DNA from: an uncultured Ruminococcus sp.
Lineage (GTDB): Bacteria; Bacillota; Clostridia; Oscillospirales; Acutalibacteraceae
DNA: 64,000 nucleotides
NCBI GenBank assembly: GCA_905233755.1
Contig: CAJODM010000012.1
Location: 26,207-90,206, forward strand
Direction: 5' to 3'
This document shows positions 1,929 to 55,658 of the stretch, piece after piece (the first letter of the stretch is position 1; every line of letters begins with the position of its first letter). The position numbers and the translations under genes were made by a program. The notes under the pieces were generated by a model. It saw only the letters and a list, made by a program, of their open reading frames with translations. It had not been told where the DNA came from and ran no database searches.

Positions 1929-1957
1929 TTGCATTCTCTGTGAGAATATGCTACAAT
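1929..1957 (+). promoter_or_regulatory. sigma-A-like promoter upstream of secG
   Basis: TTGCAT - 17 nt - TACAAT; the spacer contains ATTCTCTGTGAGAAT. Confidence 0.55.
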
Positions 1958-2025
1958 AACCTTTGCACATGAGATTATGACCCGTCTGCCGAACGTCAGA
2001 CAGATTCGAAAGGAAGAACGATATT

Positions 2026-2274
2026 ATGTCAGTTATTCAGTATATCCTCGGAGCACTCCTCATCGTCGCGTCTATCGTGATGATCGTCGTCATCATCCTG
2101 CAGGAGGGCAACCAGCAGGGTATCGGTGTTGTCTCCGGCGGCGCCGACACCTTCTTCTCGAAGAACAAGGCGCGCTCCTATGATGCGTTCCTCGCCCGCG
2201 CGACCAAGTGGTTTGCGATCGGGTTCGTCGTCGTGGTGCTCGCGCTGAACATCATCGCGTTCTTCGTCGGCTGA
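2026..2274 (+). CDS. secG: preprotein translocase subunit SecG
   Basis: 82 aa, two TM segments, ILQEGNQQGIGVVSGGADTFFSKNKARSYDAFLARAT. Confidence 0.9.
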   Translation: MSVIQYILGALLIVASIVMIVVIILQEGNQQGIGVVSGGADTFFSKNKARSYDAFLARATKWFAIGFVVVVLALNIIAFFVG

Positions 2275-2304
2275 TGCTTCTATTCTGACCCATTTGTTCA
2301 TATG

Positions 2305-2336
2305 ATAGACTATCGGATATCCGGTAGTCTTTTCTT
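2305..2336 (+). terminator. intrinsic terminator after secG
   Basis: GACTATCGGATATCCGGTAGTC hairpin followed by TTTTCTTTTTT. Confidence 0.75.
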
Positions 2337-2384
2337 TTTTGTCGCATCATCACATGGATGGTCATTTGATCGCGGGGGATCGGT

Positions 2385-2636
2385 ATGTGGAAGCTGGTAC
2401 TGACGCTGTTGGGCGCGTTCTTTCTGTTCTCGTTCATCCTTTTTGCAGCCAAAAACAAAAAGCCCTTCAAGAGGGCTTTTCTGTATCTGCTGTTCGGGGT
2501 GCTTTCTTTGACGGTTGTCAACCTGTGCTCGTCGATGACCGGGGTGTATATCCCCGTCACGCGGCTGTCGCTGATCGTCAGCACGGTCGGCGGGCTGCCG
2601 GGCGTCGCGCTGCTGGTGATGCTGACGCTGCTGTAG
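2385..2636 (+). CDS. small membrane protein resembling pro-sigmaK processing inhibitor BofA
   Basis: 83 aa, hydrophobic, C-terminal pattern VNLCSSMTGVYIPVTRLSLIVSTVGGLPGVALLVMLTLL fits the BofA family pattern. Confidence 0.6.
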   Translation: MWKLVLTLLGAFFLFSFILFAAKNKKPFKRAFLYLLFGVLSLTVVNLCSSMTGVYIPVTRLSLIVSTVGGLPGVALLVMLTLL

Positions 2637-2682
2637 CCCGTATAGGGTAATCCCGCAGGGCATCATCCCCATATACCCCCTG

Positions 2683-3279
2683 CTAGATGACCGATCCGAA
2701 CTCGGACAGGATATCGGTGACGGCGCGCTTGTTGCGGGTGAGCATCGCGATCATCACCTCATAGAACAGCTCGGGGTTCTTGTAGAAGTTCTTCCTTAGC
2801 AGCCGCGCCTGGGTGATATCCGGCACATAGACCGAGAACCGCAGAAGATCCATCTCGCCGCCCGAGATGGCACAGTTCACCGTATAGCCGTTCTCACCTT
2901 TCTCGATCGTGACCTTGTTCTCGCGCTCGATCCGCTCCCGCTCGAGGAGCAGCAGCGCACACTCGGTCGCGCGTTCTCTGACGGTGAGGGCGAGCGTGTC
3001 CTCGAGTTGCGTCGCGATCATCTCGCCGTTCTCGGTGTTTCGGTACAGCGTATCGCTGCCCTCGATGGGGGCGATGTTCCCGTTACGGCTCAAATCGTCG
3101 AAGCATGTGCTCGCCTCAAAGTAGTTCGCAAGCCCCTTCTCAAGCAGGGCGTTCACCACCGTCTCCTTGCTCATCGGCTGGCCGACCGTCTTGAAGAGGT
3201 AGCAGATGAGGGTGCGTATCTCGGTTTTGGAGCGCATCCCGCCGAGGATGATCCCTTCGTCAAAGGTATCAAATGCCAT
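2683..3279 (-). CDS. DUF4364 family protein
   Basis: FDEGIILGGMRSKTEIRTLICYLFKTVGQPMSKETVVNALLEKGLANYFEAS... with C-terminal LRKNFYKNPELFYEVMI. Confidence 0.75.
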   Translation of the reverse strand: MAFDTFDEGIILGGMRSKTEIRTLICYLFKTVGQPMSKETVVNALLEKGLANYFEASTCFDDLSRNGNIAPIEGSDTLYRNTENGEMIATQLEDTLALTVRERATECALLLLERERIERENKVTIEKGENGYTVNCAISGGEMDLLRFSVYVPDITQARLLRKNFYKNPELFYEVMIAMLTRNKRAVTDILSEFGSVI

Positions 3280-3393
3280 ATCGTCACACCGCCTTTCTGA
3301 TACACAATTATACCATTTTATCCCGTTCGATGTCAACAGAAACCGGAGGGCTTTTTCGGCCCTCCGGTCCCGTTTTTTGCCGAAAGATTCGTT

Positions 3394-4173
3394 TCAGCTT
3401 GCATTCTTCATTTGCAGACGGAGCTTATCGGATATCATCGCGATGAACTCGCTGTTGGTGGGCTTTCCGCGCGATCCCTGGATGGTATAGCCAAAGTACG
3501 AGTTCAGCACTTCGACGTCGCCGCGATCCCACGCCACCTCGATCGCGTGGCGGATGGCACGCTCGACGCGCGATGAGGTCGTCTCATACTTCTTGGCGAC
3601 CGACGGATAGAGCTGCTTGGTGACCGCGTTGATGATCTCGGGCTTCTCGATGCACATGATGATCGAATCGCGCAGGTAGTGGTACCCCTTGATATGCGCC
3701 GGTACACCGATCTGGTGCAGGATCTCGGTCACCTTCAGCTCGAGGTTATAGCTCTCATAGGACGAGGGGCGGATGCCGCCCTTCTGGCGGATCTTGCTGC
3801 GCTTGTTCATGCGAACGATATTCTCCGCCAGATCAGACAGATTGAACGGCTTGAGCACAAAGTAGCTCGCGCCCGCGCTCATGACCTCGCGCTCCAGCAC
3901 CGGACTGTCAAACGACGAGTAGATGATGAACAGCGGCAGCTTCTCTGGCTTGGAGCGACGGACAGCGCGCATCACCCCGATGCTGTCGACGTGCGTCATG
4001 AACAGGTCCATGACGACTACGTCCGGATGATCCGAGTCGATGCGGGCGATGAGCTCTTCGCCGTCTTTTGAACATACGCCGGTGATGATGTTGTGCTTCT
4101 CAAATTCGCTTTTGGTTTCTGTAATATTGTCAGCCGAGTCCTGCGTAATCAAAAGTTTGATTTTTTCAGTCAT
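3394..4173 (-). CDS. spo0A: sporulation transcription factor Spo0A
   Basis: Receiver domain plus Spo0A C-terminal domain ([22 protein letters not shown]..., [54 protein letters not shown]). Confidence 0.93.
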
Positions 4174-4204
4174 TTTTACATCTCCTATTTCTTTTTGTAA
4201 GGAT

Positions 4205-4227
4205 AGTTTACCATAAATTGGTAAACT
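4205..4227. promoter_or_regulatory. perfect inverted repeat upstream of spo0A
   Basis: AGTTTACC-ATAAATT-GGTAAACT. Confidence 0.5.
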
Positions 4228-4263
4228 TGGCAATAGAAAACATAAAAATTTTTTAGAGAAATA

Positions 4264-4272
4264 TTCGACAAA
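4264..4272 (-). promoter_or_regulatory. candidate 0A box
   Basis: Minus strand TTTGTCGAA matches the 0A-box consensus; located about 90 nt upstream of the spo0A start. Confidence 0.55.
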
Positions 4273-4294
4273 TTCTGTGCGTTTTGCACCGAAC

Positions 4295-5293
4295 CTAGCC
4301 CGTTATCCCGCCATAGCTTGCATAATTCCTCCGCATATTTCCGATTGAGATCCCGTATCCCTTCTCGGGCGCGTTGACGAACACATGGGTCACCGCGCCG
4401 ACGAGCTTTCCGTTCTGGACGATGGGGCTGCCGCTCATCCCCTGGACGATGCCGCCGGTCTTTTGCAGCAGCGTTTCGTCCGTGACGCGGACGACCATGT
4501 TCTGGCCGTTCTTATTGTCGGGGGTGACGGTCTCTATCTCGACTTTATACGGAGTGACACCGCTGTCGTCCACGGTTGCATACAGGGTCGCGTCTCCTGT
4601 GGTGATCTCTTCATCGCCGGCGCACTGGATGCGCGTATCACTCATCAGGGTGTGATACCGTCCATACACGCCGAACGCGTTGTTCAGCGTGATGGAGCCG
4701 ATGCTCGTGTCGCTCATATAGCCGTTCAGCCCGCCGGCGACACCGCGCTCTGCGCGCGTGATCGAGGTGATCTGTGCGTCCATGATCTCGCCGTTCTTCA
4801 GCGGCATGAGCATACCGGTGTCGCGGTCACATACGCCGTGTCCCAGCGCGCCGAACGACATCGTGCTCTCGTCAAAGTAGGTGACGGTGCCGAGCCCTGC
4901 GGTCGAGTCGCGCACCCACAGCCCCGCTTCATATTCGCTGTCGTCATTCATCCCGGGGGTCAGGGTTACGGTTATTGGGGTGTTATCGCGCGATAGCAAT
5001 AATTCAATATCCTCTCCCTGAGACGTCGTGATGATCTCTTTGAGCTGTTCGTTCGAGGTGATCTCCTCATCGTCTGCTGTCATGATGACGTCATTCTTTT
5101 TGATACCGGCCATATCCGCGCTGCTGTAGGTGTCGACGTTAATCACAAGAACGCCGCTGGTGTACAGCTTGAGCCCGAACGGCATCCCGCCGAGGAAAAC
5201 CGTGTCGTTATCCTTAGCAGCCGCGCGCGGGCATATCGCGCACAGAAGGCACAGCACAAAGGCAACTGTCAAATTTTTCTTCCATCTATTCAT
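4295..5293 (-). CDS. spoIVB: SpoIVB peptidase (S55, PDZ domain)
   Basis: Signal peptide, PDZ-like segment, GALGHGVCD and [28 protein letters not shown]. Confidence 0.9.
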
Positions 5294-5417
5294 TATATCC
5301 CTCCTTTACGTTGCCTATGCTATTATTTGCAATATCGCTTTCGTCATGTTGTCAATCGCTGTATGTTGTCGGATTGTCCGACGATACCGCTTTTTGCGAA
5401 TATATGTCAATTTTTAT

Positions 5418-5430
5418 TTCTGATTTAGAA
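5418..5430. repeat. dyad motif TTCT-N5-AGAA, intergenic upstream of cca
   Basis: TTTTTAT-TTCT-GATTT-AGAA-TTAAAT. Confidence 0.6.
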
Positions 5431-5489
5431 TTAAATATAAGAAAACCATGCTATAATTTGAGAGAGTATAGAGAGAGGGGGGTGACGGG

Positions 5490-6855: not shown

Positions 6856-7203
6856 GCGAGTAAATCAGGCAGTCGCGGGCGACGGCCGAAAGGCCCCGTC
6901 CGAGGAAAGTCCGGGCTTCACAGAGCGAGGATAACGGCTAACGGCCGCCGGGGGCGACCCTAGGGATAGTGCAACAGAAAAGAACCGCGAACCTTATAAA
7001 AGGCGCAAGGGTGGAAAGGCGAGGTAAGAGCTCACCAAGGCAGGGGAGACCCTGTCGTTGTGTAAACCCTATCCGAAGCAACACCGTGGAGGGACATACG
7101 GCCTGCTCGGCCGTCCCGAGGAGGTGGCATTGAGCCGTAGCGGCAACGCACGGCCAAGATAGATGACTGCCCGATACAGAACCCGGCTTACAGATTTACT
7201 CGC
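6856..7203 (+). ncRNA. rnpB: RNase P RNA (class A)
   Basis: GAGGAAAGTCCGGGCTTCACAGAG near the 5' end, ACAGAACCCGGCTTACAG near the 3' end, terminal pairing GCGAGTAAAT/ATTTACTCGC. Confidence 0.95.
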
Positions 7204-7216
7204 TACATCATAACAG

Positions 7217-7287: not shown

Positions 7288-7965
7288 TCAGTTCCGATCA
7301 CGATGCGGCTCGACCCGTATGACTTCGCGCCATACGCTCACAAGGTTCTTCGAGACCGTCCGATCCTCGTGCAGGCATCCGAAGTACCAGCACCTAAACC
7401 GCGTGTTCCTGAGCACCGTATCGAGGAAGAGGTTGAGGTCGTTGACCGCCGCTGACCTGTCCACCACGCGCTTCACCGATGCCGGCGGCTCGTGGGTGAC
7501 GATGATGTCGACGCGTAGGCGCCGGCTGCGGATGTTCTCGACCGCATAGGCGAGCTCCTCGTCCGTCGGCATCGACAGCGGATGCTCGGACTCGTCATGG
7601 GTATGGGGATCGAGCCCGCCGCCGATCGCGAGCACCTGTAGCCCGTCGATGGTATAAATCTCGCCCCGCTTCAGACAATAGATATTGTGGTCGATGCGAT
7701 ACCCTTTGGCACAGTAGAGGTCCACCTCGCGGAACGCCTTGAGCCGCTCGTGGTTCTCGTGCGCGCCGTCGACGAACAGGATATCGAACTTCTTCTTCGA
7801 GAGCTTTTTGAGGTTTTTTAGTTCTTTTTCAGAATTATCCCAGATAAAGCCGAAGTCGCCCGTGACGATGAGCTTGTCGCCTTTCTTGAGCCCCTTGAGC
7901 CGTCGATCGTTGAGGTCATCGAGGTCGCCGTGGGTATCGCCGGTGATAAAAATCACGTTATCCAT
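7288..7965 (-). CDS. metallophosphoesterase
   Basis: FITGDTHGDLDDL, LIVTGDFGFIWDN, VDGAHENHERL, VTHEPP: calcineurin-like phosphoesterase motifs. Confidence 0.85.
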   Translation of the reverse strand: MDNVIFITGDTHGDLDDLNDRRLKGLKKGDKLIVTGDFGFIWDNSEKELKNLKKLSKKKFDILFVDGAHENHERLKAFREVDLYCAKGYRIDHNIYCLKRGEIYTIDGLQVLAIGGGLDPHTHDESEHPLSMPTDEELAYAVENIRSRRLRVDIIVTHEPPASVKRVVDRSAAVNDLNLFLDTVLRNTRFRCWYFGCLHEDRTVSKNLVSVWREVIRVEPHRDRN

Positions 7966-13559: not shown

Positions 13560-13821
13560 GCTTTTCGTGGTATAGTAGACACCGAGATAGATGATCGTTG
13601 ATGGGGACAACGCCCCCGCTCGCTGCGCTCCAGAGAGCCGCCTGTTGCTGTGATGGCGGTGCGCTGCGCCGGACGGATACCACCCCTGAGATCGTGCCGG
13701 AATGCACGACGTTCGCCGCGTTAAGGCATATGAAGGGTATCGTATGATACCGAAGTTGGGTGGAACCACGTTGTAAGACGTCCCGATAGTTCTTTTCAAG
13801 AATTATCGGGCGATTGTTTTA
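13560..13821 (+). ncRNA. T-box leader upstream of thrS
   Basis: GGGTGGAACCACG T-box sequence followed by a terminator hairpin CCCGATAGTTCTTTTCAAGAATTATCGGG; position upstream of thrS. 5' boundary approximate. Confidence 0.85.
13782..13821 (+). terminator. T-box regulated terminator
   Basis: CCCGATAGTTCTT-ttc-AAGAATTATCGGG with a T-rich tail. Confidence 0.75.
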
Positions 13822-15796: not shown

Positions 15797-16585
15797 TTGC
15801 GAAAGCATAAACTGTACAAGGTCAGCCGCGGCGCGCTCGAAGAGCAGCGGCTGCGCGAGGACAACCGAACCGAGACCCAGCGCGCGCTGCTGTTCATCCT
15901 GCCGGTGCTGATGGTGGCGGTGCTTGTGCTGGGGCTGTACTTCGGCTACCAGACCTATCGTCATACCTTTGTCACCTCCTCCACCGTATCCTCTGCCGGG
16001 ACGGCGGGTGACGAGGACCGCGATCCGATGCTGCTTTCGGTCGTCAGCTCTGCGTCGCCGCTCGAGCAGGACTATGTGCCAACGCTCTCGACGGTGCGGG
16101 GGGTCGAGGTATCCGCCTATGCTGCCGATATGCTCGAGCGGATGCTCACCGATGCCGACAGCGACGGTGTCGAACTGATCCTGAGAGAAGGTTATATTTC
16201 TTTTGCAGAAGAAAAGGAGCGATATGACGCCGCTGTCGCCGCCTACAAGAAGTCGTCCAAATCATCGACCGTGAAGGCGGAGTCCTACGTCAAGCGCACC
16301 ATCCCGAAGGAGGGCGAGAGTGAGCAGCAGACGGGGCTGATCGTCTATCTCGATGCGGACAGCGATGCGGACAGCGATGCGTTCGAGTCCACTCCTGCGT
16401 TCTCGTGGTTGTTGAAGAACGCGTCCGACTACGGATTTGTGCTCCGCTATCCCGAGCAGGAGAACGTCGGCGGCATCCGCTACACGCCCCACCTGTTCCG
16501 GTATGTCGAGGTCGAGGACGCCTATTTTATCCGCGCGTATGATATGAGCTTTGACGAGTATGTCGCCTATATCGAAGCAAAATAA
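15797..16585 (+). CDS. membrane-anchored VanY/M15B D,D-carboxypeptidase-like protein lacking zinc ligands
   Basis: N-terminal TM; ESEQQTGLIVYLDAD aligns with SEHxTGxAxD, WLLKNASDYGFVLRYP is typical M15B, RYTPHLFRYVE aligns with EPWHFRYVG. Confidence 0.72.
   Translation: MRKHKLYKVSRGALEEQRLREDNRTETQRALLFILPVLMVAVLVLGLYFGYQTYRHTFVTSSTVSSAGTAGDEDRDPMLLSVVSSASPLEQDYVPTLSTVRGVEVSAYAADMLERMLTDADSDGVELILREGYISFAEEKERYDAAVAAYKKSSKSSTVKAESYVKRTIPKEGESEQQTGLIVYLDADSDADSDAFESTPAFSWLLKNASDYGFVLRYPEQENVGGIRYTPHLFRYVEVEDAYFIRAYDMSFDEYVAYIEAK
16198..16210. repeat. dyad motif TTCT-N5-AGAA inside the vanY-like CDS
   Basis: GGTTATAT-TTCT-TTTGC-AGAA-GAAAAGG. Confidence 0.5.
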
Positions 16586-16961: not shown

Positions 16962-17585
16962 ATGAATGTCTATAAGACCGTTGCGTCCTCTGTCTGTGCC
17001 GAGCTGGTAGAGAAGCGGTCGCGGTTTCTGGGCTATATCTGTCCTGTTACGACCGAGCAGCAGGCGCTCGCGTTTCTGTCCGAGAAGCGAAAGCTCCACT
17101 GGGACGCCACCCATAACGTATATGCCTATATCATCCGCGATACCGGTACGGTGCGCTACTCTGACGACGGCGAGCCGCAGGGGACCGCCGGCATGCCGGT
17201 GCTCGATGTGTTGCAGAAACGCGGGCTGTGTGATCTGGTCGTCGTCGTGACGCGCTACTTCGGCGGCGTGCTGCTCGGCGCGGGCGGGCTGGTGCGCGCC
17301 TATTCGGCGGCAGCATCGCGCGCGGTCGAGCTCTCCGGCGAGCGCGAGATGACGATGTGCTCGGTGTGCGAGGTGCGGCTATCCTATACGCTGTACGGTC
17401 GTGTGCCCGCGCTGATCGCGTCGCTCGGCGGCGTGGTGGATGACGCGGTGTTTGCCGACGATGTGGGGCTGACCTTCCATCTGCCCGAGGAGATGCTCGC
17501 TCCCTTTTGCAAGGAGCTGTCCGAGCTGTCGAACGGCAAATGTCAGCCAAAAGAGCTGCGAAAAGAATTTTTTTGCCTGAAATAA
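16962..17585 (+). CDS. YigZ/IMPACT family protein
   Basis: KRSRFLGYICPV, ATHNVYAYII, RYSDDGEPQGTAGMPVLDVLQKRGLCDLVVVVTRYFGGVLLGAGGLVRAYS. Confidence 0.92.
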   Translation: MNVYKTVASSVCAELVEKRSRFLGYICPVTTEQQALAFLSEKRKLHWDATHNVYAYIIRDTGTVRYSDDGEPQGTAGMPVLDVLQKRGLCDLVVVVTRYFGGVLLGAGGLVRAYSAAASRAVELSGEREMTMCSVCEVRLSYTLYGRVPALIASLGGVVDDAVFADDVGLTFHLPEEMLAPFCKELSELSNGKCQPKELRKEFFCLK

Positions 17586-17645: not shown

Positions 17646-19424
17646 ATGGAGCAGAATATGCGACTATCGGATGATTTCCTCAGCGAGCTGAAGTACCGCA
17701 ACGACCTGTCTGAGATCGCCGCGGGCTATATGCAGCTCAAGCGGCGGGGCAGGAACCTTGTCGGGCTGTGCCCCTTTCACGGGGAGAAGACCCCCTCCTT
17801 CAACATCTATACCGAGAACGGCTCGTTCTACTGTTTCGGGTGCGGTGTCGGCGGCGACGTCATCACCTTTATCCGAAAGATCGAGAATCTCGATTATATC
17901 GAAGCGGTGCGATTCCTCGCCCAGCGGGCGGGGATGACGATGCCCGAGGACGACGTCGATGACTCTATGTCGCGGATGCGCACCCGTATCTATGAGGCGA
18001 ACCGCGAGGCGGCGCGCTTCTATCATGCTGCGCTGACCGGCAGCGGAGGACAGGCGGCGCTCGGCTATCTTCGGTCGCGTGCGCTGAGTGACAGCACCAT
18101 CCGGCATTTCGGGCTGGGATATGCCCCGCCGTCGCGCTTTGCGCTTGCGGATCACCTGCGCTCCAAGGGGTTCTCCGAGAGCGAGCTGATCGCCGGAAAC
18201 CTCGTGTTTCGCTCCCGCTCGGGCAAGGGGGTCGTCGATCGGTTTGCCGATCGGGTAATGTTCCCGATCATCGACCTGCGCGGCAACGTGATTGCTTTTG
18301 GCGGGCGGCTGATGGGCGACGGCAAGCCCAAGTACCTGAACACCTCGGACACCGTTGTGTTCTCGAAGAGCAGCAACCTCTTCTCGCTGAACAACGCCAA
18401 GAACGCGAAGTCCTCCTCCCTCATCCTGTGCGAGGGGTATATGGACGTGATCTCACTGTGTCAGGCGGGATTTGCTGAAGCGGTGGCGACGCTCGGCACC
18501 GCGCTGACCGCCGATCAGGCGGCGCTGATGAAGCGCTACTGTGACGATGTCGTCATCTGCTATGACGCCGACGAGGCGGGGCGCAAGGCAACCGCCCGCG
18601 CGATCGAGATCCTGCGGCGCGCCGGCGTGAACGTCCGCGTGCTGACGATCCCCGATGGCAAGGACCCCGACGAGTTCCTGCGCCGTCACGGCGACAAGGC
18701 GTACGAGGCGTTCAAGAATCTCCTCGACAACACCGGCAACGATATCGACTATCGGCTCTATCAGCTGCGTGCCCGTTACGACATGACCTCCTCATCGGGG
18801 AAGCTCGGGTACCTGTCCGATGCGGTCGCGGTGCTCTCGTCGCTCGAGAACCCGCTCGAGCGCGACATCTATGCATCGAAGCTGTCCGATGAGACCGGCG
18901 TCAACAAGGCATCCGTCATGGAGCAGGTCGACCGGCTGATGAAACGTCGCCGTACCGACCGCCGCCGCACCGAGTTCCGCGATATCGAGAAGCGGATCGC
19001 CGCCCGTGACGACCGCGTGAACCCCCAGCACGCCGATAACCTGCGCGCCGTCCGCGCCGAGGAGAACCTCATCGCCTTTCTCGTCAACAACCCGGACAAG
19101 CTCGATCATATCACCTCCCGCATCACTGCGGATGACTTTGTCACCGATTTCAACCGGAAGCTGTTTACATATTTCTCTGAGAGAATTAAAAACGGTGTCG
19201 ATCCCATGGCGTCGGTATCGGCGGATTTCACCGCCGACGAGCTGTCGCGGGTGATCCGGATCGTGACCTCTTACTCGTTCGTCTCGTCCACCGTTGACGC
19301 GATGAACGAGTATATCGACGTGATCCTCTGCCAAAGCGCCCGTCCCTCTTTGACCGATATCCGTGACGCGTCGGACGACGAGCTGAAGAAGTATCTCCAA
19401 GATCTCAAGGAATCGAAGAAATAA
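17646..19424 (+). CDS. dnaG: DNA primase
   Basis: CHC2 zinc motif [36 protein letters not shown] segment [17 protein letters not shown]. Confidence 0.95.
19173..19185. repeat. dyad motif TTCT-N5-AGAA inside dnaG
   Basis: TTACATAT-TTCT-CTGAG-AGAA-TTAAAAAC. Confidence 0.6.
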
Positions 19425-22816: not shown

Positions 22817-24295
22817 ATGGAAGAGAGAAATATCTATAAGGATATCGAGACGCGCACCGGCGGCGATATCTATATCGGGGTGGTCGGGCCGGTTCGCACC
22901 GGCAAATCGACATTCATCAGGCAGTTCATGGATACGCTGGTGCTGCCGCATATCGACGACGACAGCCGTCGCGAGCGCGCGAACGACGAGCTGCCCCAGT
23001 CCTCCGCCGGCAGGACGATCATGACCACCGAGCCCAAGTTCGTCCCCGAGAACGCCGTCGGGATCACGCTGGACGGAACCGCTCACCTTCGGGTACGGAT
23101 GATCGACTGTGTCGGGTATATCGTCGATTCGGCGATGGGATATATCGAGGATGACGCCGAGCGGCTCGTTAACACCCCGTGGAACGATGCGCCGATCCCG
23201 TTTCGTGATGCAGCAGAGACGGGGACGAGAAAGGTGATATCCGAGCACGCGACCATCGGGATCCTCGTCACCACCGACGGCTCGTTCGGCGATATCCCGC
23301 GCGGCGACTATACCGCTGCCGAGGAGCGGGTCGTTTCTGAGCTGCACAGCAGCGGCAAACCCTTCATCATCCTGCTGAATACGACCGATCCCGACAGCGC
23401 GAACTCCCGCGAGCTGTCGCGCGCGCTGTCAAAGAAGTATGACGCGCCGACCGTCGCCGCCGACTGTCTGACGCTCGACGAGAACAGCATCAAGGGGATC
23501 CTTGCGTCGCTGCTGTTCGAGTTCCCGATCCGCGAGATCCGTATCGCGCTGCCCCGATGGATGACGCGGCTCGAGGGCGACCACTGGCTGCGCTGTTCGG
23601 TGTTTGATGCGATCCGCCAAAGCTGCGAGAAGCTGTGCAGGATCCGCGAGGTGAACGACGCTGCCGCCGCGATGCCCGCGTGCGAGTATATCGACGACGC
23701 GTCGATCGATGCGCTCGAGCTGGGTCAGGGTAGGGCGGACGTCTCTGTGACCCTATCCGAAGGGCTGTTCTACCGGGTTCTGTCCGAGAAGAGCGGGCTC
23801 GATATCGCCGACGAGCGATCGCTGCTCGATTGTATCTGTACGCTGTCGGGCAGCCGCGAGCGGGTCGAGAAGATATCCGACGCGTATGAGGATGTGATGT
23901 CCACCGGCTACGGCATCGTGATGCCCTCGATGGAGGAGCTCTCGCTCGAGGAGCCCGAGATCGTCCGCCAGAACGGCAAGTACGGCATCCGGTTGCGCGC
24001 CTCGGCGCCGTCTATCCACATGATGCGGATCAACACGACCGCCGAGGTGACGCCGATCGTCGGCAGCGAGCAGCAGAGCGAGGAGCTGGTGTCCTATCTG
24101 CTGCGCGAGTTCGAGGAGAACCCCGCCAAAATCTGGGAGAGCAACATCTTCGGCAAGTCCGTCAGCGACCTCGTCGGCGAGGGGCTGCACAACAAGCTCT
24201 ACCGTATGCCGCCCAAGGCACGCGCCAAGGTAGGGGAGACCGTCGAGAAGATCATCAACGACGGATGCAACGGACTCATCTGCATTATTCTCTGA
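22817..24295 (+). CDS. spoIVA: stage IV sporulation protein A
   Basis: RNIYKDIETRTGGDIYIGVVGPVRTGKSTFIRQFMDTLVLP and the full-length SpoIVA pattern. Confidence 0.96.
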   Translation: MEERNIYKDIETRTGGDIYIGVVGPVRTGKSTFIRQFMDTLVLPHIDDDSRRERANDELPQSSAGRTIMTTEPKFVPENAVGITLDGTAHLRVRMIDCVGYIVDSAMGYIEDDAERLVNTPWNDAPIPFRDAAETGTRKVISEHATIGILVTTDGSFGDIPRGDYTAAEERVVSELHSSGKPFIILLNTTDPDSANSRELSRALSKKYDAPTVAADCLTLDENSIKGILASLLFEFPIREIRIALPRWMTRLEGDHWLRCSVFDAIRQSCEKLCRIREVNDAAAAMPACEYIDDASIDALELGQGRADVSVTLSEGLFYRVLSEKSGLDIADERSLLDCICTLSGSRERVEKISDAYEDVMSTGYGIVMPSMEELSLEEPEIVRQNGKYGIRLRASAPSIHMMRINTTAEVTPIVGSEQQSEELVSYLLREFEENPAKIWESNIFGKSVSDLVGEGLHNKLYRMPPKARAKVGETVEKIINDGCNGLICIIL

Positions 24296-24394
24296 AAGAA
24301 AAAATATATCCGCCTCCATTTTGGTGTTGAATTATCTCATGGTTTGTAGTATAATACATACTGAGATAAGTTGGACCATATGGAGGCATTTTTT

Positions 24395-26091: not shown

Positions 26092-26104
26092 TTCTAATTT
26101 AGAA
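26092..26104. repeat. dyad motif TTCT-N5-AGAA, intergenic between oadB and wzz
   Basis: TTGATAATA-TTCT-AATTT-AGAA-TTAAAACCG. Confidence 0.6.
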
Positions 26105-29151: not shown

Positions 29152-29379
29152 TCGACGCTTATGATCTCCTGTTCCTGCGGGCTGACCGACGATCGGTCGG
29201 CCTCGTCTTTTATTCTTAATCGGAATAATGACTATTTTGTCATTTTCTGCATCGTTTCTTGACTTTTAGCGGAATAGTCTGTATAATTATTCTGTTATGA
29301 TTGAAAGTGTATCTTGTGGTAGTGCCGTCTGACAGTCCCAAGATATGGCTTTCGGAAAGAAACATATGGAGGTTTAGGC

Positions 29380-33761: not shown

Positions 33762-34664
33762 ATGATGAACCAACTGACAGCTTTCTTGGAAGAACAGCAT
33801 ATCGCCTATCGGCTGCACGAGCCCATGCGGGCGCATACCACCTTTAAGATCGGCGGCGAGGCGGACGTCTGTCTGACCGTCTGTTCTGTCGACGAACTCA
33901 TCGGTGTGCTCGCGCGCTGCCGTGCGCTCGGCATCCCCGCCATGGTGATCGGCAGGGGGTCGAATCTGCTCGTGTCCGACGAGGGGATCGAGGGCGCGGT
34001 GATCGAGCTGGGCGGTGCGTTCCGTAAGCTTTCGGTCGACGGCGATACCGTCACCTGCGGCGCGGGCGTCAGCTTGTCAAAGCTCTGTACCGTCGCCTGT
34101 GAGCACGGGCTCTCCGGGCTCGAGTTTGCCTACGGAATCCCCGGGTCTGTCGGCGGCGCGGTGTATATGAACGCCGGCGCCTATGGCGGCGAGATGCGCG
34201 ATGTCTGCGCGGATGTGACCGCACTCTCCGAGAGCGGTGCGATCTGCGTTGTCGATAGAGCGGACTGTGCGTTCGGCTACCGCACCTCTGTCTTCAAGAC
34301 GAGTGGCGATATTATTCTTTTTTCGAAATTTATGTTACATCCCGACGACAGTGCAGCGATCCGTTCCCGCATGGACGACTACATGGATCGCCGCCGCTCA
34401 AAGCAGCCGCTGGAGTACCCCTCTGCGGGCTCGGTGTTCAAGCGCCCTGTCGGCGCGTTTGCCGGCACGCTGATCGAGTCCTGCGGGCTGAAGGGGACGT
34501 CCGTCGGCGGCGCTCAGGTCTCTATAAAGCACGCCGGATTTATCATCAACACCGGCGGCGCGACCTGTGACGATGTGATGCGCCTTGTTGCGCTGATACA
34601 AGAGCGCGTCAAGCACGAGACCGGCTATGACCTTCAGCGCGAGATCATCCGGATAGGGAGGTAG
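33762..34664 (+). CDS. murB: UDP-N-acetylenolpyruvoylglucosamine reductase
   Basis: MRAHTTFKIGGEADV, IGRGSNLLVSDEGI, GIPGSVGGAVYMNAGAYGGEM, PSAGSVFKRP. Confidence 0.95.
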   Translation: MMNQLTAFLEEQHIAYRLHEPMRAHTTFKIGGEADVCLTVCSVDELIGVLARCRALGIPAMVIGRGSNLLVSDEGIEGAVIELGGAFRKLSVDGDTVTCGAGVSLSKLCTVACEHGLSGLEFAYGIPGSVGGAVYMNAGAYGGEMRDVCADVTALSESGAICVVDRADCAFGYRTSVFKTSGDIILFSKFMLHPDDSAAIRSRMDDYMDRRRSKQPLEYPSAGSVFKRPVGAFAGTLIESCGLKGTSVGGAQVSIKHAGFIINTGGATCDDVMRLVALIQERVKHETGYDLQREIIRIGR

Positions 34665-40279: not shown

Positions 40280-41128
40280 ATGAAGATAGGATTGATCGCC
40301 AATAAGGAGAAGCCCCATGCCGCCGAGGTATGTGCTCAGATCGCCGCGCGGCTGTTGAGCGGCGGCGCGTCGGTATGCGCGAACCTTTCGCTGCCGGGGG
40401 CTGCGTTCTGTGACGGCGGCGAGCAGGTCATCCGTACCTGTGATATCGCCGTGACCGTCGGCGGCGACGGCACCATCATCCATAACGCCAAGCACGCCGC
40501 GTTCTATGACCGTCCGCTCCTCGGCGTGAACCTCGGGCGGGTCGGGTTTGTGGCGAACATCGAGCCGTCGGAGCTCGACGAGCTCTCGGGGCTGCTTGAT
40601 GGATCGTATCAGATTCAGGAGCGGATGCTCCTCGATATCACGATCGAGAAGGATGGCGAGATACACCGCTATACCGCCGTCAACGAGGCGGCGCTGCACC
40701 GCGACTCGCTCTCCTCGATGGTGGATATCTCGGTATCGCTCGACGGCGAGCGCATCATCACCTACCGCGCCGACGGGATGCTGTTCTCCACGCCCACCGG
40801 CTCGACCGCCTACTCGTTCTCTGCCGGAGGGCCGGTGCTGCAGCCGGACCTTGCCTGTATCCTGCTGACGCCGGTATGCCCCCACGCGCTGTCATCACGT
40901 CAGGTGGTGTTCGGTGCCGACGCGGTGCTCACCGCCGAGGTGATGCCCGGCTCTGATCAGAAGTGCTATATGACCGTCGATGGTCAGAACTATGTGGCGA
41001 TATCGTCCGACGACCGGATCACAGTGCGCCGCTCTGACCGCAAGCTGAAGCTGATTATTCTTAAAGAGAAGAATTTCTACACATTACTGAACGAAAAGCT
41101 AAAGGAGCCCTCGTCCTATGAAGACTAA
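40280..41128 (+). CDS. nadK: NAD kinase
   Basis: VTVGGDGTIIHNAKHAA, GVNLGRVGFVANIEPSEL, TPTGSTAYSFSAGGPVL. Confidence 0.95.
   Translation: MKIGLIANKEKPHAAEVCAQIAARLLSGGASVCANLSLPGAAFCDGGEQVIRTCDIAVTVGGDGTIIHNAKHAAFYDRPLLGVNLGRVGFVANIEPSELDELSGLLDGSYQIQERMLLDITIEKDGEIHRYTAVNEAALHRDSLSSMVDISVSLDGERIITYRADGMLFSTPTGSTAYSFSAGGPVLQPDLACILLTPVCPHALSSRQVVFGADAVLTAEVMPGSDQKCYMTVDGQNYVAISSDDRITVRRSDRKLKLIILKEKNFYTLLNEKLKEPSSYED
41058..41070. repeat. dyad motif TTCT-N5-AGAA inside nadK
   Basis: CTGATTA-TTCT-TAAAG-AGAA-GAATTTC. Confidence 0.5.
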
Positions 41129-43305: not shown

Positions 43306-45354
43306 ATGAAGAAATGGACGACCCAAAAACTGAATAAGGAAAGCGCGCTTGCCATTTCTCAGAAGCATTCGCTGCCGATGCTGATCGCCATGCTGCTCGA
43401 TATCCGCGGGATTACCGACGATCAGCAGATCATCGACTTTCTCACCTTAGAGACGCTGACCGCCTCTCCGTTCGAGATACGCGATATGGACGTTGCCGCC
43501 GCACGCATCCGCGACGCCATCGAGAACTTTGAGAAGATCTGTATCTTCGGCGATTTTGATGCCGACGGCGTGACCTCGACTGCGCTGCTATATTCGTATC
43601 TGAGCGACATCGGCGCCGACGTGATGTACTATATCCCCTCGCGCGAGACCGAGGGTTACGGCATGAACAAGGACGCTGTTTCCAAGCTCTATGGGCAGGG
43701 CGTCAAGCTCATCATAACGGTCGATAACGGGATCGCCGCGGTGGATGAGATCGCCTATGCCAACGAGCTAAACATCGACACCGTCGTCACCGATCACCAC
43801 GCCGTTCCCGATGTTCTGCCCGATGCAGTCGCGGTGGTCGATCTTCACCGCCCCGACTGCCATAGTTCGTTTAAAGAATTATCGGGTGTCGGCGTCGCCT
43901 TCAAGTTGGTCCAGGCGATCGAGGGCGAGTATGCCGATGTCGACGGGCTGCTGGACAACTACTCGGACCTTGCGGCTCTGGGTACCATCGGCGACATCGT
44001 ATCGCTCACCGGTGAGAACCGCGTGCTCGTGAAGAACGGGCTGAGACATATCAACAACGGCGACCGCATCGGGATCGCCGCTCTGACCGACGCGTCCGGT
44101 ATTGCCGGACGGCGCATCACCTCGGGCAACATCTCGTTCACCTTGGTACCGCGCATCAACGCCGGCGGGCGGCTGGGGCTGTCCTCCAAGTCGGTGGCGA
44201 TGCTATTGTCCGAGGACGATGACTATGCCGCCGAGATCGCCGACGAGCTGTCGGCTGACAACACCGAACGACAGCAGATCGAGCGCGATATCCTCTCGGA
44301 TATCGACGACATGATCCGCGAGGATCCCCGCATCACCCAGAACCGCGTCATCGTCGTCAGCGGCGAGGGCTGGCACAAGGGCGTGATCGGGATCGTCGCC
44401 TCTCGTATCAAGGAGATCTACGGCAAGCCCGCGATCGTCATCTCGCTCGATGACGAGGTATGCCGCGCATCGGGACGGTCGGTCAAGGGATTCTCGCTGA
44501 TCGACGCGCTGTTCGCGTGTTCCGATCATCTTCTGCAGTGCGGCGGCCATCCCATGGCGGTCGGGCTGGGGATCCGACGGGGAGAGATCGAGCCGTTCAT
44601 CAGTGCGCTGAACGCCTATGCCGAGCAGCACCCCGTTCCTTTGCCGACACTCGAGCTCGACTGCAAGCTCAATCCCCTCCTGCTCTCGGTAGAGCTCGCG
44701 TCGGGGCTGGAGCTGCTCGAGCCGTTCGGCGCGGGGAACCCGACGCCGCTGTTCGGGCTGTACAACATGACGCTGCGCGATATCCGTGAGCTCGGCGGGG
44801 GCAAGCACCTGCGCCTTACGCTCAGCCGCGACAGCGCATCGGTACAGGCGATGCGGTTCTCGACCACGCTGTCCGAGTTCCCGTATCAGGTCGGCGATAT
44901 CGTCGATCTGGCGGTTACGCTGGACGTAAGTGTGTATAATAATACCGAGACCCTCTCTGTCATCATCCGCGAGATGCGGTTCTCGGGTCTGGATGAGGAC
45001 GAGTTTATTTCTTCAGAAGAAATTTTTTCTTCCTTCTGTCGAGGGGATGCGTTGAGCAGCGCCGACGCGCTCTCTATCACCCCCTCGCGCGAGGAGTTCG
45101 CGGTGGTCTACCGCTATCTGCGATCCCACAATGGCTATCGCTACAGCTTCGATACCCTCCTCTACCGCATCGGTGCATCATTGAACTACGGCAAGCTGCG
45201 GGTGATCCTCGAGTGCATGAACGAGCTTCGGCTGATCCGCATCTATGAGGGGATGTACGACTGCGAGATCGAGATGTGCGCGGTCAACGCTAAGGTGAAT
45301 CTGTCCGACAGCGTGATCATCAGAAAGTTACAGGAGGTGGCACAGCTTGACTGA
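43306..45354 (+). CDS. recJ: single-stranded-DNA-specific exonuclease RecJ
   Basis: IFGDFDADGVTSTALLYSYL, VTDHHAVPDVLPDAVAVVDLHRPDC, GGHPMAVGLGIR. Confidence 0.92.
   Translation: MKKWTTQKLNKESALAISQKHSLPMLIAMLLDIRGITDDQQIIDFLTLETLTASPFEIRDMDVAAARIRDAIENFEKICIFGDFDADGVTSTALLYSYLSDIGADVMYYIPSRETEGYGMNKDAVSKLYGQGVKLIITVDNGIAAVDEIAYANELNIDTVVTDHHAVPDVLPDAVAVVDLHRPDCHSSFKELSGVGVAFKLVQAIEGEYADVDGLLDNYSDLAALGTIGDIVSLTGENRVLVKNGLRHINNGDRIGIAALTDASGIAGRRITSGNISFTLVPRINAGGRLGLSSKSVAMLLSEDDDYAAEIADELSADNTERQQIERDILSDIDDMIREDPRITQNRVIVVSGEGWHKGVIGIVASRIKEIYGKPAIVISLDDEVCRASGRSVKGFSLIDALFACSDHLLQCGGHPMAVGLGIRRGEIEPFISALNAYAEQHPVPLPTLELDCKLNPLLLSVELASGLELLEPFGAGNPTPLFGLYNMTLRDIRELGGGKHLRLTLSRDSASVQAMRFSTTLSEFPYQVGDIVDLAVTLDVSVYNNTETLSVIIREMRFSGLDEDEFISSEEIFSSFCRGDALSSADALSITPSREEFAVVYRYLRSHNGYRYSFDTLLYRIGASLNYGKLRVILECMNELRLIRIYEGMYDCEIEMCAVNAKVNLSDSVIIRKLQEVAQLD
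45009..45021. repeat. dyad motif TTCT-N5-AGAA inside recJ
   Basis: GAGTTTAT-TTCT-TCAGA-AGAA-ATTTTTTC. Confidence 0.5.
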
Positions 45355-47541: not shown

Positions 47542-47997
47542 ATGAGAGCGGTACTGCAACGTGTGACCCATGCCGCCGTGTCGGTCGGCGATAGGATCGT
47601 CGGCGCGATCGATAAGGGGCTTTTGATCCTGCTCGGGGTGGTCGACGGCGATACCCCGCGTGACGCCGAGGTGCTTGCCGACAAGATCGCGAACCTGCGA
47701 ATCTTCTCGGATGATGACGGGCGGATGAACCTGTCGGCGCTCTCGGTCGGCGGCAGCGCGCTGGTGATCTCTCAGTTCACCCTGTGCGCCGATTGCAGCC
47801 ACGGGCGGCGTCCCGATTTCTTCTCGGCGGCAAAGCCCGCGATCGCCGAGGAACTGTATTTATATTTCTGTGAAAGAATGAAAGCCGCCGGTATCTCCGC
47901 CGTCGAGAAGGGTATCTTCGGTGCAGATATGCAGGTCGAGCTTCTCAACGACGGCCCCGTCACCATCCTGTTGGATACGAAGGATATGAAGAAATGA
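47542..47997 (+). CDS. dtd: D-aminoacyl-tRNA deacylase
   Basis: MRAVLQRVTHAAVSVGD, LILLGVVDGDT, ALVISQFTLCADCSHGRRPDF, VELLNDGPVTILLD. Confidence 0.95.
   Translation: MRAVLQRVTHAAVSVGDRIVGAIDKGLLILLGVVDGDTPRDAEVLADKIANLRIFSDDDGRMNLSALSVGGSALVISQFTLCADCSHGRRPDFFSAAKPAIAEELYLYFCERMKAAGISAVEKGIFGADMQVELLNDGPVTILLDTKDMKK
47866..47878. repeat. dyad motif TTCT-N5-AGAA inside dtd
   Basis: TTTATAT-TTCT-GTGAA-AGAA-TGAAAGCC. Confidence 0.55.
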
Positions 47998-51917: not shown

Positions 51918-51962
51918 AATACTAGATGAAATCTGAACTTTTTGGGATTTTCGGAGGCAGGC

Positions 51963-52751
51963 ATGAACTTTGACAGGAAGGAACGATATGATATCTCCGA
52001 CCTTATAGAGATTATGCACCTTCTCCGCGCTCCCGACGGCTGTCCGTGGGACAAGGTTCAGACGCACGCGAGCATCCGCCAGAACTTCATCGAAGAGACG
52101 TACGAGGCGGTCGAGGCGATCGACACCGAGGACTACGACCTTCTGCGCGAGGAACTGGGCGATGTGCTCATGCAGGTCATCTTTCATGCCATCATGGAGG
52201 AGGAGACCGGTCGGTTCACCTTTGACGATGTGTGCAACGACGTGTGCCATAAGCTGATCGTCCGCCATCCCCATGTGTTCGCCGATACTATCGCCGACAC
52301 CCCCGACGAGGTGCTCCGCAACTGGGACGCCATCAAGATGCGCACCCATCAGCAGACCACCTATGCCGACGCGGTCGACGCGGTCGCCCGTTCCCTTCCC
52401 GCGCTGATGCGCGCCCAGAAGGTGCAGAAGCGCGCATCAAAGTCCGGCTTTGATATCGAGAACGTCGACGGCGCGTTCGATAAGATCCTCGAGGAGCATG
52501 ACGAGCTGCGGCTCGCCGACCTCTCGCGCGAGGATCCCGATCGCCTGACAGAGGAGCTCGGCGATCTGCTGTTCTCGGTGGTGAACACCGCGCGGTTCCT
52601 CGGCGTTGATGCCGAGCTGGCGCTGACGCGGGCGACCGAGAAGTTCGCTACCCGTTTCCGCAAGGTGGAGCAGCTTTGCATCGAGCGGAACATTGACATG
52701 AAGTCGACCCCGATCCCGTTAATTGATTCCCTTTGGGAAGAAGTTAAATAA
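51963..52751 (+). CDS. mazG: nucleoside triphosphate pyrophosphohydrolase MazG
   Basis: [50 protein letters not shown]. Confidence 0.94.
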
Positions 52752-52789
52752 ATCGCGGCACTGACCGCAAATTTTTGGAGGAAACTAAA

Positions 52790-53065
52790 ATGAAAAAGAC
52801 TGAACTCATCGCTGCTGTTGCAGAAAAGGCAGGCATCTCGAAGAAGGACGCTGAGGCAGCCGTCTCCGCTACCTTTGACACCATCGTTGACACCATCGCT
52901 GCCGGCGACAAGATCCAGCTTGTCGGCTTTGGTACCTTCGAGAGAAGAGAGCGCAACGCGCGCACCGGTTGTGACCCCAGAACCAACGCGAAGATCGAGA
53001 TCCCCGCGTCCAAGGTTCCCGCTTTCAAGGCCGGCAAGGCGTTCAAGGAAGCTGTCAACAAGTAA
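52790..53065 (+). CDS. HU family DNA-binding protein
   Basis: [32 protein letters not shown]...[41 protein letters not shown]. Confidence 0.96.
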
Positions 53066-53084
53066 TTTATACCCCAGCGTATGA

Positions 53085-53117
53085 GAGCCGGCTGCCACAG
53101 CCGGCTCCCAGTTTTTT
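53085..53117 (+). terminator. intrinsic terminator of the HU gene
   Basis: GAGCCGGCTG-CCA-CAGCCGGCTC followed by CCAGTTTTTT. Confidence 0.78.
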
Positions 53118-53127
53118 GGAGGATAAC

Positions 53128-53367
53128 ATGAGACTCGACAAGTATCTCAAGGTGAGCCGCATCATCAAGCGGCGCACCGTCGCCAACGAGGTATGCGACG
53201 CCGGCAAGGCGGTCGTCAACGGCCGACCCGCCCGCGCGTCCTATGATGTGAAGGTCGGCGATATCATCGAGCTGAACTTCGAGACCCGCTCGGTGCGGTT
53301 TCGTGTCGAGAAGGTCGCCGATACCGTCCGCAAGGAGGACGCCGATTCGATGTACACCCCGCTCTAG
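53128..53367 (+). CDS. rqcP: S4-domain RNA-binding protein RqcP (YabO-like)
   Basis: MRLDKYLKVSRIIKRRTVANEVCDAGKAVVNGRPARASYDVKVGDIIEL. Confidence 0.92.
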   Translation: MRLDKYLKVSRIIKRRTVANEVCDAGKAVVNGRPARASYDVKVGDIIELNFETRSVRFRVEKVADTVRKEDADSMYTPL

Positions 53368-53444
53368 GAATCTATCTATCGCGTATCTTTTTGAGCTGCC
53401 TGCCATATAATCTATTGATATAGGTTATAAGGCAGGTATTGTTT

Positions 53445-53720
53445 ATGCAGGAATCATCGAAGAAACCGTCACCCCACACCCTCACCCTGACCGACCGGCA
53501 GTCGCTGACCCTCACCGGCGTCGTCGACGTCCCCGGGTTTGACGAGGAGACGATCCATATCAAGCTCGATTCCGGTACGCTCGTCGTCAAGGGCGCTTCC
53601 CTTCATATCAACAAGCTGAGCTTGGACTCGGGCGACGTCTGTATCGACGGCGTGGTCAACTCGCTGCAGTATCTCTCATCACCCTCCGGTAAGAGCGTGC
53701 GCTCGCGGATCTTCCGGTGA
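53445..53720 (+). CDS. yabP: sporulation protein YabP
   Basis: PHTLTLTDRQSLTLTGVVDVPGFDEETIHIKLDSGTLVVKGASLHINKLSLDSGDVCIDGVVNSLQY. Confidence 0.92.
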   Translation: MQESSKKPSPHTLTLTDRQSLTLTGVVDVPGFDEETIHIKLDSGTLVVKGASLHINKLSLDSGDVCIDGVVNSLQYLSSPSGKSVRSRIFR

Positions 53721-54262
53721 TGTGGCTCTCGCTGTCGGATCAGACGATCTACTTCCTCTCGTCGCTGGTGTTCGGCGCGGTGCTGGGGGTGCTGTATGAT
53801 CTGCTGCGGCTCTCTCGCGCGCTGACGCATCCTTCGACACGCGGCGTGATCGTCGGCGATATCCTGTTCTGTACGCTGTGCGGGATGCTGACGGCGCTGT
53901 TCTCGATTCCGTATAACTTCGGCGAGGTGCGGCTGTTCATTATCCTCGGCGAGGGGGTCGGGTTTCTCCTGTATCGTCTGACCATCGGTACGCTGACGCC
54001 AAAGCTCTTTTTGCCGCTGTCACGGTTTCTGCGTCTTGTGGTGAAAAAAAGTTTAGAAATTCTGACAAAAATTTATACTTTTCTATTGAAAAGCACCCGA
54101 TTTGTGGTGTATAATGTAGTTGGATTATTATACAAACTACTACATCTGGTGCATCCACCATCTGAGGAGCCCACCCATGAGCGAGAAGAACCGTCCCCTC
54201 GACGTCACCCCCGACGTCATCGGATCCGACGAACCCGAAACAACCGCAAAACCCACCAGTAA
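53717..54262 (+). CDS. yabQ: spore cortex biosynthesis protein YabQ
   Basis: TM protein directly after yabP; FGAVLGVLYDLLRLSR, GDILFCTLCGML. Confidence 0.82.
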   Translation: MMWLSLSDQTIYFLSSLVFGAVLGVLYDLLRLSRALTHPSTRGVIVGDILFCTLCGMLTALFSIPYNFGEVRLFIILGEGVGFLLYRLTIGTLTPKLFLPLSRFLRLVVKKSLEILTKIYTFLLKSTRFVVYNVVGLLYKLLHLVHPPSEEPTHEREEPSPRRHPRRHRIRRTRNNRKTHQ

Positions 54263-54551
54263 GCGCACCCGACGCCTTGCGTTCGTTGCGCTGTATGTGG
54301 TTGTGTTCATATTTGCCATCTATGCCGTTGTGACCCTTGTCGGGCTGCACTCCCAGATACAGGAGCGCCGCACCGAACTCGAGGAGCTGCAGGGCGAGAT
54401 CATCGTCCAGGAGATCAAGAACGACGAGATGAGCAAGCTGTATAACTACACGGATGATGAGTTCTCCGACTATGTGGAGCAGATCGCCCGCGACGACCTC
54501 GACTATGTGAAGTCGGGGGAGAGGGTGTTTGTCAACGTATCGGGCGACTGA
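54177..54551 (+). CDS. FtsB/DivIC-family septum formation initiator
   Basis: Single TM plus coiled coil (LHSQIQERRTELEELQGEIIVQEIKNDEM), EQIARDDLDYVKSGERVFVNV. Confidence 0.85.
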   Translation: MSEKNRPLDVTPDVIGSDEPETTAKPTSKRTRRLAFVALYVVVFIFAIYAVVTLVGLHSQIQERRTELEELQGEIIVQEIKNDEMSKLYNYTDDEFSDYVEQIARDDLDYVKSGERVFVNVSGD

Positions 54552-54557
54552 TTATAT

Positions 54558-54570
54558 TTCTAAATAAGAA
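54558..54570. repeat. dyad motif TTCT-N5-AGAA, intergenic upstream of the S1-domain gene
   Basis: TGATTATAT-TTCT-AAATA-AGAA-TTTTAAGG. Confidence 0.6.
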
Positions 54571-54591
54571 TTTTAAGGGGTTTTTTACTGA

Positions 54592-55074
54592 ATGTCATTG
54601 AAAGTCGGCACCATTGTCAACGGTAAGGTTACCGGTATCACCGGTTTCGGCGCGTTTGTCGAGACCGAAAGCGGCGAGAAGGGGATGATCCATATCTCCG
54701 AGATTTCCCGCTCCTACGTCGAGGACATCAAGGCGGTCCTCAAGCTCGGACAAGCTGTCACCGCCAAGGTCATCTCCGTCTCGAATGACGGCAAAATCGC
54801 CCTGTCGATCAAGCAGCTCGATTCCGCCGACAAGGGCGACAAGTCCAAGAAGCCCTACAAGAAGTCCGAGAAGCCGAAGCCCCGTTATGAGAAGTATAAG
54901 CCCGCACCCGCGGTGACCTCTCCCGGCGACTATGAGTGGGAGAGCAGCCGCAACAGCGGAACCTTCGAGGACATGATGTCGAAGTTCAAGCGCACCTCCG
55001 AGGACAAGATGTCCGACCTGAAACGTGGAGAAAGCCGCGGCTATTCCCGTCGGGGTGGCAGCGGAAGAAAATAA
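54592..55074 (+). CDS. S1 domain RNA-binding protein (YabR-like)
   Basis: VGTIVNGKVTGITGFGAFVETESGEKGMIHISEISRSYVEDIKAVLKLGQAVTAKVIS. Confidence 0.92.
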   Translation: MSLKVGTIVNGKVTGITGFGAFVETESGEKGMIHISEISRSYVEDIKAVLKLGQAVTAKVISVSNDGKIALSIKQLDSADKGDKSKKPYKKSEKPKPRYEKYKPAPAVTSPGDYEWESSRNSGTFEDMMSKFKRTSEDKMSDLKRGESRGYSRRGGSGRK

Positions 55075-55103
55075 TCCTATAGCATGACAAAGGAGACATC
55101 ACT

Positions 55104-55637
55104 ATGAACATTACCTATACCGCGAGAAAGGTAACGCTCCGCGACAACTTCAAGCAGCGCGTCGAGAAGAAGCTGAAGAAATTCGACAAGATCTTCTCCG
55201 ATGACGCGACGGCGAACGTGGTCGTCACCCTTGACAAGAACTCTCAGACCGTTGAGATCACCATCCGCGATAACCAGATGGTCTACAGAGCCGAGAAGAC
55301 GATGCTCGAGATGAACGATGCGCTCGACAAGTGTATCGACGTGCTCGGCCGCCAGCTCCGCAAGAACAAGTCCCGCCTTGAGAAGCGGCTGCGCAGCGGC
55401 TCGATCGAGGAGCTCACCGCCCCCGTCGAGGAGCCGGTCGTCGAGGACGAGTTCGAGATCGTCCGCACCAAGTCCATCCCCGTCAAGCCCATCTCGGTCG
55501 AGGAGGCGATCCTTCAGATGAACATGGTCGGCCACAAGTTCTATATGTTCACCGACGCTGATTCCGGCGAGATCAACGTCGTCTATGTCCGCGACGACGG
55601 CGCCTATGGGCTGCTGCGGCCCACCGTGGACGAGTAA
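55104..55637 (+). CDS. hpf: ribosome hibernation-promoting factor, long form
   Basis: MNITYTARKVTLRDNFKQRVEKKLKKFDKIF; C-terminal SVEEAILQMNMVGHKFYMFTDADSGEINVVYVRDDGAYGLL. Confidence 0.95.
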   Translation: MNITYTARKVTLRDNFKQRVEKKLKKFDKIFSDDATANVVVTLDKNSQTVEITIRDNQMVYRAEKTMLEMNDALDKCIDVLGRQLRKNKSRLEKRLRSGSIEELTAPVEEPVVEDEFEIVRTKSIPVKPISVEEAILQMNMVGHKFYMFTDADSGEINVVYVRDDGAYGLLRPTVDE

Positions 55638-55645
55638 CGATATAT

Positions 55646-55658
55646 TTCTTTGTTAGAA
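55646..55658. repeat. dyad motif TTCT-N5-AGAA between the hpf stop codon and its terminator
   Basis: GATATAT-TTCT-TTGTT-AGAA-TTAAACGGG. Confidence 0.6.

Follow-up and report, generated by a model that had tools for sequence, protein, structure and literature searches.

Terminus macrodomains are known mainly from Gammaproteobacteria that carry MatP, a protein whose sites (matS) have the consensus GTGACRNYGTCAC. Noc sites of Bacillus subtilis avoid the terminus, as do the sites of SlmA and SeqA. In Escherichia coli, matS is present in 23 copies in 800 kb (PMC3330122), and the SlmA-binding sites (SBS) and GATC sites of SeqA in the same organism are likewise specific to a domain of the chromosome (reviewed in PMC3116907). 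A linker between the Z-ring and the terminus has been described in Caulobacter (PMC7188993). The present analysis concerns a gapped palindrome, TTCT-N5-AGAA, that recurs in a 64,000-nt stretch of DNA (referred to here as the window) from an uncultured Ruminococcus sp., located on contig C12 of a 1.67-Mb genome in 41 contigs (G000). Among named relatives, the thrS protein was closest to rumen and gut metagenome-assembled genomes labeled uncultured Ruminococcus or Clostridiales, with Neglectibacter and Merdimmobilis more distant, and the order is on this basis taken to be Oscillospirales. The findings described below favor the interpretation that copies of this motif are predicted sites of a dimeric protein, specific to the host genus (labeled g1), that probably marks the ori-distal (terminus) domain of the chromosome.

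The window contains 15 TTCT-N5-AGAA cores compared with 0.53 expected, and at most 3 were obtained in any of 100 shuffles. When the spacer was varied from 0 to 12, each length other than 5 gave 0 to 4 cores. The initial annotation of this DNA had placed the number of cores far above chance, as found here, and its coordinates were all correct; one exact core (24288) was overlooked. AT-rich flanks were noted for 11 of the 15 cores. In the whole of G000, 149 cores were present versus 13 matches to a reversed control pattern. Shuffle, spacer and per-contig analyses of this genome covered 1.21 Mb, in which 118 cores occurred at spacer 5 and 4–51 at other spacers. For AT-flanked cores, i.e., those with at least 9 A/T among 12 flanking bases, the corresponding numbers were 97 and 0–12. 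Thus, the enrichment of spacer 5 over neighboring spacers, which had been put forward as a check on the motif, was evident genome-wide. It also exceeded a null in which synonymous codons were shuffled within each called gene and intergenic DNA was shuffled in blocks (20.2 ± 3.7 cores, of which 3.2 ± 1.6 were AT-flanked). The full element extends over approximately 23 bp, with the consensus TATAATTCT-N5-AGAATTATA, a free center and a relative-entropy profile that is symmetric across this length. At spacer 5, the sole clearly enriched core substitution was innermost T to C in one half-site (15 versus 1.3), and weaker enrichment was noted for innermost T to G (5 versus 1.1), so that the one-mismatch sites listed in the initial annotation are plausible.

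The distribution of sites over the chromosome was uneven. The sites, initially described as scattered through the genome, form an ori-distal domain. In G000, 20-kb bins were overdispersed for sites (P = 5e-7), with contigs C1, C2, C4, C6 and C12 (the window) rich in sites and contigs C3, C5, C7, C8, C9 and the examined part of C22, which carries dnaA and gyrB, nearly empty. In G016, the best-assembled congener (15 contigs), contig C13 (374 kb, examined in full) contains dnaA, dnaN, gidA, gidB, noc-like, soj and spo0J at 338–352 kb, and its GC skew flips sign near these origin genes. A single AT-flanked site was found on C13, at 351937 within spo0J/parB. In the genome as a whole, 93 sites are flanked on each side by an A/T triplet, and C13 makes up 21.6% of the sequence, so that approximately 20 sites would be expected on this contig if placement were uniform; the binomial probability of one or fewer is approximately 4e-9. 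The ParB contigs of two other congeners contained none of the 45 sites of one genome (G003, contig of at least 90 kb) and none of the 27 sites of the other (G020, contig of at least 70 kb). Sites are thus excluded from the origin region. Elsewhere in G016, one site was present in the 100 of 287 kb of C5 that were examined, and 56 sites were present in 270 kb of C6 (550 kb), C3 and C1 outside a sparse stretch, i.e., about 2 per 10 kb. Most of the window corresponds to G016 C6:434–488 kb, within this rich zone.

The GC skew on G016 C6 was largely positive over the first 180 kb and negative beyond 220 kb (sampled windows 160–180 and 220–240 kb), a change that probably marks the terminus. Listed sites on this contig were dense at 11–123 kb and from 293 kb, with none at 520–550 kb. 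The simplest picture is of a domain that would reach about 300 kb outward from the terminus in both directions and be sparse at its center, and because of this sparse center "terminus-flanking" or "ori-distal" is a more exact description than "terminus". When every 4+4 gapped palindrome with a spacer of 0–12 was compared in an unbiased way between the two groups of G016 contigs (C13 and C5 versus C6, C3 and C1), TTCT-N5-AGAA was the most contig-biased (P = 1e-12), first by six orders of magnitude, and the runner-up was a shifted form of the same motif. Ori-distal position and AT-rich flanks would also be expected for a nucleoid-associated or silencing factor that targets AT-rich DNA near ter, similar in role to H-NS, Rok or Lsr2. 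Such a factor is nevertheless improbable, since the 8-base core is strict and its spacing fixed, single sites are isolated inside GC-rich housekeeping genes, and GC content was similar between the site-rich and site-poor contigs of G000. A mirrored origin-side motif, TTGT-N8-ACAA (45 versus 9 on G016 C13 and C5), was not replicated in G000 and is probably due to chance. Two other approaches were abandoned: a dif pattern as a terminus marker failed validation on a single-contig control genome (G043), and placement of contigs by the gene order of G043 was defeated by an order that was too scrambled.

Sites within coding sequence are under selection. Sixty-two of 95 classified AT-flanked sites were in genes and 33 were intergenic, in a genome with a coding density of 88%. 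All three reading frames were used, so that a protein motif does not explain the coding sites. Orthologues of window genes are only about 45–72% identical, yet sites occupy the same codons. Thus, in the gene at 7288–7965, identical residues shared a codon in 90% of cases inside the site versus 45% outside, and in two further genes of the thrS neighborhood same-codon use was 68–69% inside sites versus 47–51% outside. Comparisons of the same site across orthologues indicated that the core stays while the N5 center varies. Relatives without a site often wrote the same residues in GC-richer codons, from which it appears that sites are gained and lost as units. Compared with G016, 10 of 23 aligned coding sites were kept in register, and the proportion of residues with the same codon, given the same amino acid, was 0.70 in sites as opposed to 0.35 elsewhere. 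Conservation of site positions in relatives, which had been proposed as a further check, was therefore evident both for orthologues of window genes and in the comparison with G016.

These results bear on the possibility that the motif is the operator of a global transcription regulator with a regulon that happens to be ori-distal. This explanation, though unlikely, has in its favor that a third of the AT-flanked sites are intergenic (33/95) when intergenic DNA is approximately 12% of the genome, that some sites are 20–60 bp upstream of genes (e.g., clpX and tsf) and that close double sites are present. It does not account for the majority of sites, which lie in coding sequence rather than being confined upstream and in many cases are conserved there, and the genes that adjoin sites are mixed housekeeping genes. 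Moreover, near-total absence from the origin contig would be unexpected for a regulon.

Pairing between flank positions 7–12 was no commoner than in shuffled columns. Since the flanks do not covary, the element functions at the level of DNA and not in the form of an RNA hairpin. An RNA hairpin, whether a processing signal, as initially proposed, or a termination signal, is largely refuted by this lack of covariation and is now very improbable, even though the 4-bp arms could pair and the thrS (13790) and 55646 sites are in or beside strong hairpins. Three of four other folded sites were no more stable than shuffles (the fourth, 19173, was moderately more stable, z −2.75), and a hairpin would not explain the chromosomal domain bias.

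The motif is restricted to the host genus at high copy number. Core counts exceeded those of the control in 36 of 36 listed g1 genomes, although the margin was slight in some AT-rich ones. When an A/T triplet was required on each side, G000 had 87 sites versus 1 for the control. Sites so defined numbered 0–15 in each of 19 genomes from other genera of the same family and 20 at most in nearly 200 genomes from other families. The contrast between high counts in g1 and low counts in other genera and families indicates a genus-level trait.

Among the systems introduced above, matS would be the closest in function, although by the tests made here the present sites fall outside the MatP system. Both are 13-bp palindromes with an odd center, repeated over a terminus-side domain, and the present sites are limited to such a domain with a gap near the terminus as placed by skew. 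They differ in consensus (TATAATTCT-N5-AGAATTATA is not that of matS), in their greater density (about 2 per 10 kb), in their AT-rich flanks and in being sparse near the inferred terminus. The host also belongs to another phylum, and a MatP homologue (PF06303) was found in none of 39 genomes searched with a profile that was positive for the E. coli control. SlmA/SBS and SeqA/GATC resemble the present system in being sites specific to a chromosome domain but are of opposite polarity and have unrelated motifs. The Caulobacter linker was compared on one point alone, namely lineage-specific, MatP-independent handling of the terminus.

The comparison with Noc of Bacillus is less simple. Noc-binding sites (NBS) are likewise dispersed palindromes kept out of one chromosome domain, and a Noc-like ParB paralogue is present in g1. 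Thus, the Noc-like gene and parB form a pair at the origin of G000 (C16:33047 and C16:34903), and a pair of ParB_N proteins encoded about 2 kb apart was noted in most g1 genomes searched, located at the origin in those that allowed the check. Canonical NBS (ATTTCCCGGGAAAT) was absent from 35 of 36 g1 genomes and almost absent from the order, which leaves some room for the idea that TTCT-N5-AGAA is recognized by this paralogue with altered specificity. Such a change is nevertheless rather improbable. The same pair also occurs in families other than that of g1, where the motif is missing, the spacing and core differ from ATTTCCCGGGAAAT, and the recognition region of the Noc-like protein (GKxQSTIANKLRLL) looks like that of ordinary Noc from B. 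subtilis. In addition, the sites avoid the origin, a polarity the reverse of that of Noc, and the "Noc-like" label initially given to the motif is for this reason misplaced. The broader suggestion made at the same time, of a dimeric DNA-binding nucleoid organizer, is supported by the enrichment of spacer 5 and by positional conservation.

Other candidates for the binding protein were considered and rejected. The second copy of a YerC/TrpR-like protein was not genus-specific, and YerC was not found in two congeners. The product of the gene at 7288–7965 is phosphoesterase-like, a calcineurin-like fold having been suggested with a score below threshold for this minus-strand gene. A crude regular-expression search for ribbon-helix-helix proteins gave no usable candidates, the matches being mostly membrane proteins. 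As a separate observation, G000 has two YerC/TrpR-like paralogues (C3:53170 and C6:55794), the second of which shares about 90% identity with its counterparts in close relatives.

According to the favored interpretation, a dimeric protein of g1 would bind the motif, and approximately 100–200 copies per genome would be maintained by selection on the ori-distal side of the chromosome, both in and between genes, while being kept away from the origin. Once bound, the protein would most likely mark or fold the terminus-side domain, possibly by bridging sites, by linking the terminus with the site of division or by modulating SMC loading, a putative function that is suggested by the distribution of sites alone. 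Several findings weigh against this interpretation. The binder was not found in the approximately three quarters of G000 examined, and its gene may have escaped notice in the remaining quarter. Sites are sparse over a stretch of about 170 kb that surrounds the inferred terminus (G016 C6, approximately 123–293 kb), and the position of the terminus was set by GC skew in sampled windows rather than by a verified dif site, and contigs C5, C3 and C1 of G016 have no physical linkage to C6. The contig groups of G016 were chosen with knowledge of site counts, except for C13, which was defined by its origin genes. The ParB contig of another congener (G015, at least 136 kb) has 2 sites, and many sites are at promoters or terminators, where a regulatory role is possible. 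Finally, coding sites were kept in 0 of 4 cases with a G016 orthologue on C13 versus 10 of 19 elsewhere, which is the direction expected if chromosomal position rather than the gene decides retention, but the contrast rests on small numbers. One such case is the region of G000 C6 at 64–78 kb, with three coding sites, which corresponds to G016 C13:146–159 kb, at a distance of some 190 kb from the origin, where G016 has none of these sites.

Whether one genus of Clostridia evolved a terminus macrodomain system that is independent of MatP, with a new DNA-binding organizer and with 100–180 sites per genome that are gained and lost according to position and override codon bias, is in our estimation an evenly balanced question. 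If it did, a sequence-defined system on the terminus side in Firmicutes would demonstrate the repeated evolution of such domains from unrelated proteins and sites, and the function of the domain could be tested by comparing close genera with and without the system. DNA-level signals of chromosome architecture can, as in dnaG and recJ, shape codon and amino-acid choice.

Dense arrays of sites were noted at three places in G016. One is just past the 3' end of ftsK (C1:17010–17212; L181), and a further two sites lie immediately upstream of this gene. Another occupies the interval from selD to a cysteine desulfurase gene (C6:502528–502693), and the third is at C15:39527–39667. Sites in and around the selD/cysteine desulfurase intergenic region extend over C6:502307–502693 (L206). 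Some sites abut head to tail with a 13-bp period (AGAATTCT junction) while other close pairs, which are few, are 24–67 bp apart. No obvious autoregulated DNA-binding protein was encoded beside double sites.

The matches in the window are listed in Table 1. Those at 17074 and 23778, already set aside as chance in the initial annotation, are protein-driven chance matches with GC-rich flanks.

Table 1. Exact and one-mismatch TTCT-N5-AGAA matches in the window.
Position	Match	A/T flanks	Location	Conservation or assessment
1934..1946	Core	7/12 (weaker)	Intergenic, upstream of secG	Uncertain
5418..5430	Core	12/12	Intergenic, between divergent spoIVB-like and CCA-transferase genes	
7822..7834	Core		Within minus-strand gene 7288–7965	Same codons in 7/9 relatives
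13790..13802	Core	7/12	In terminator-like hairpin right after thrS T-box match	Uncertain
16198..16210	Core		Within VanY-type carboxypeptidase gene 15797–16585	Same codons in 6/12 relatives, GC-richer in rest
17074..17086	Core	5/12		Chance match; not conserved in 10 orthologues
19173..19185	Core		Within dnaG (17658–19424)	Same codons in 5/8 relatives
23778..23790	Core	2/12		Chance match; not conserved in sole aligned orthologue
24288..24300	Core		Across stop codon of gene 22817–24295	Absent from initial annotation
26092..26104	Core	12/12	Intergenic, 61 bp 5' of Wzz-like gene	
29213..29225	One mismatch, TTCT-N5-GGAA			Tolerated type; probable
34315..34327	One mismatch, TTCT-N5-CGAA			Weakly enriched type; possible
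41058..41070	Core		Within NAD kinase gene	Kept at same codons in G016
43866..43878	One mismatch, TTCG-N5-AGAA			Weakly enriched type; possible
45009..45021	Core		Within recJ-like gene 43306–45354	
47866..47878	Core		Within D-aminoacyl-tRNA deacylase gene	Kept at same codons in G016
54558..54570	Core	12/12	Intergenic, between DivIC-like and S1-domain genes	
55646..55658	Core	11/12	Intergenic, directly before terminator-like hairpin	

The core at 13790 had been placed inside a T-box terminator stem and regarded as possibly incidental. Its location in a strong terminator-like hairpin was borne out, and it may belong to the hairpin. The preceding match to a T-box leader of thrS (13589–13788) scored 88.8 bits, just below the Rfam gathering score of 93. 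In relatives L040 and L048, a core likewise precedes thrS, at a comparable distance and within a similar inverted-repeat context. Elsewhere in the window, a gene for bacterial class A RNase P RNA is located at 6857–7206.

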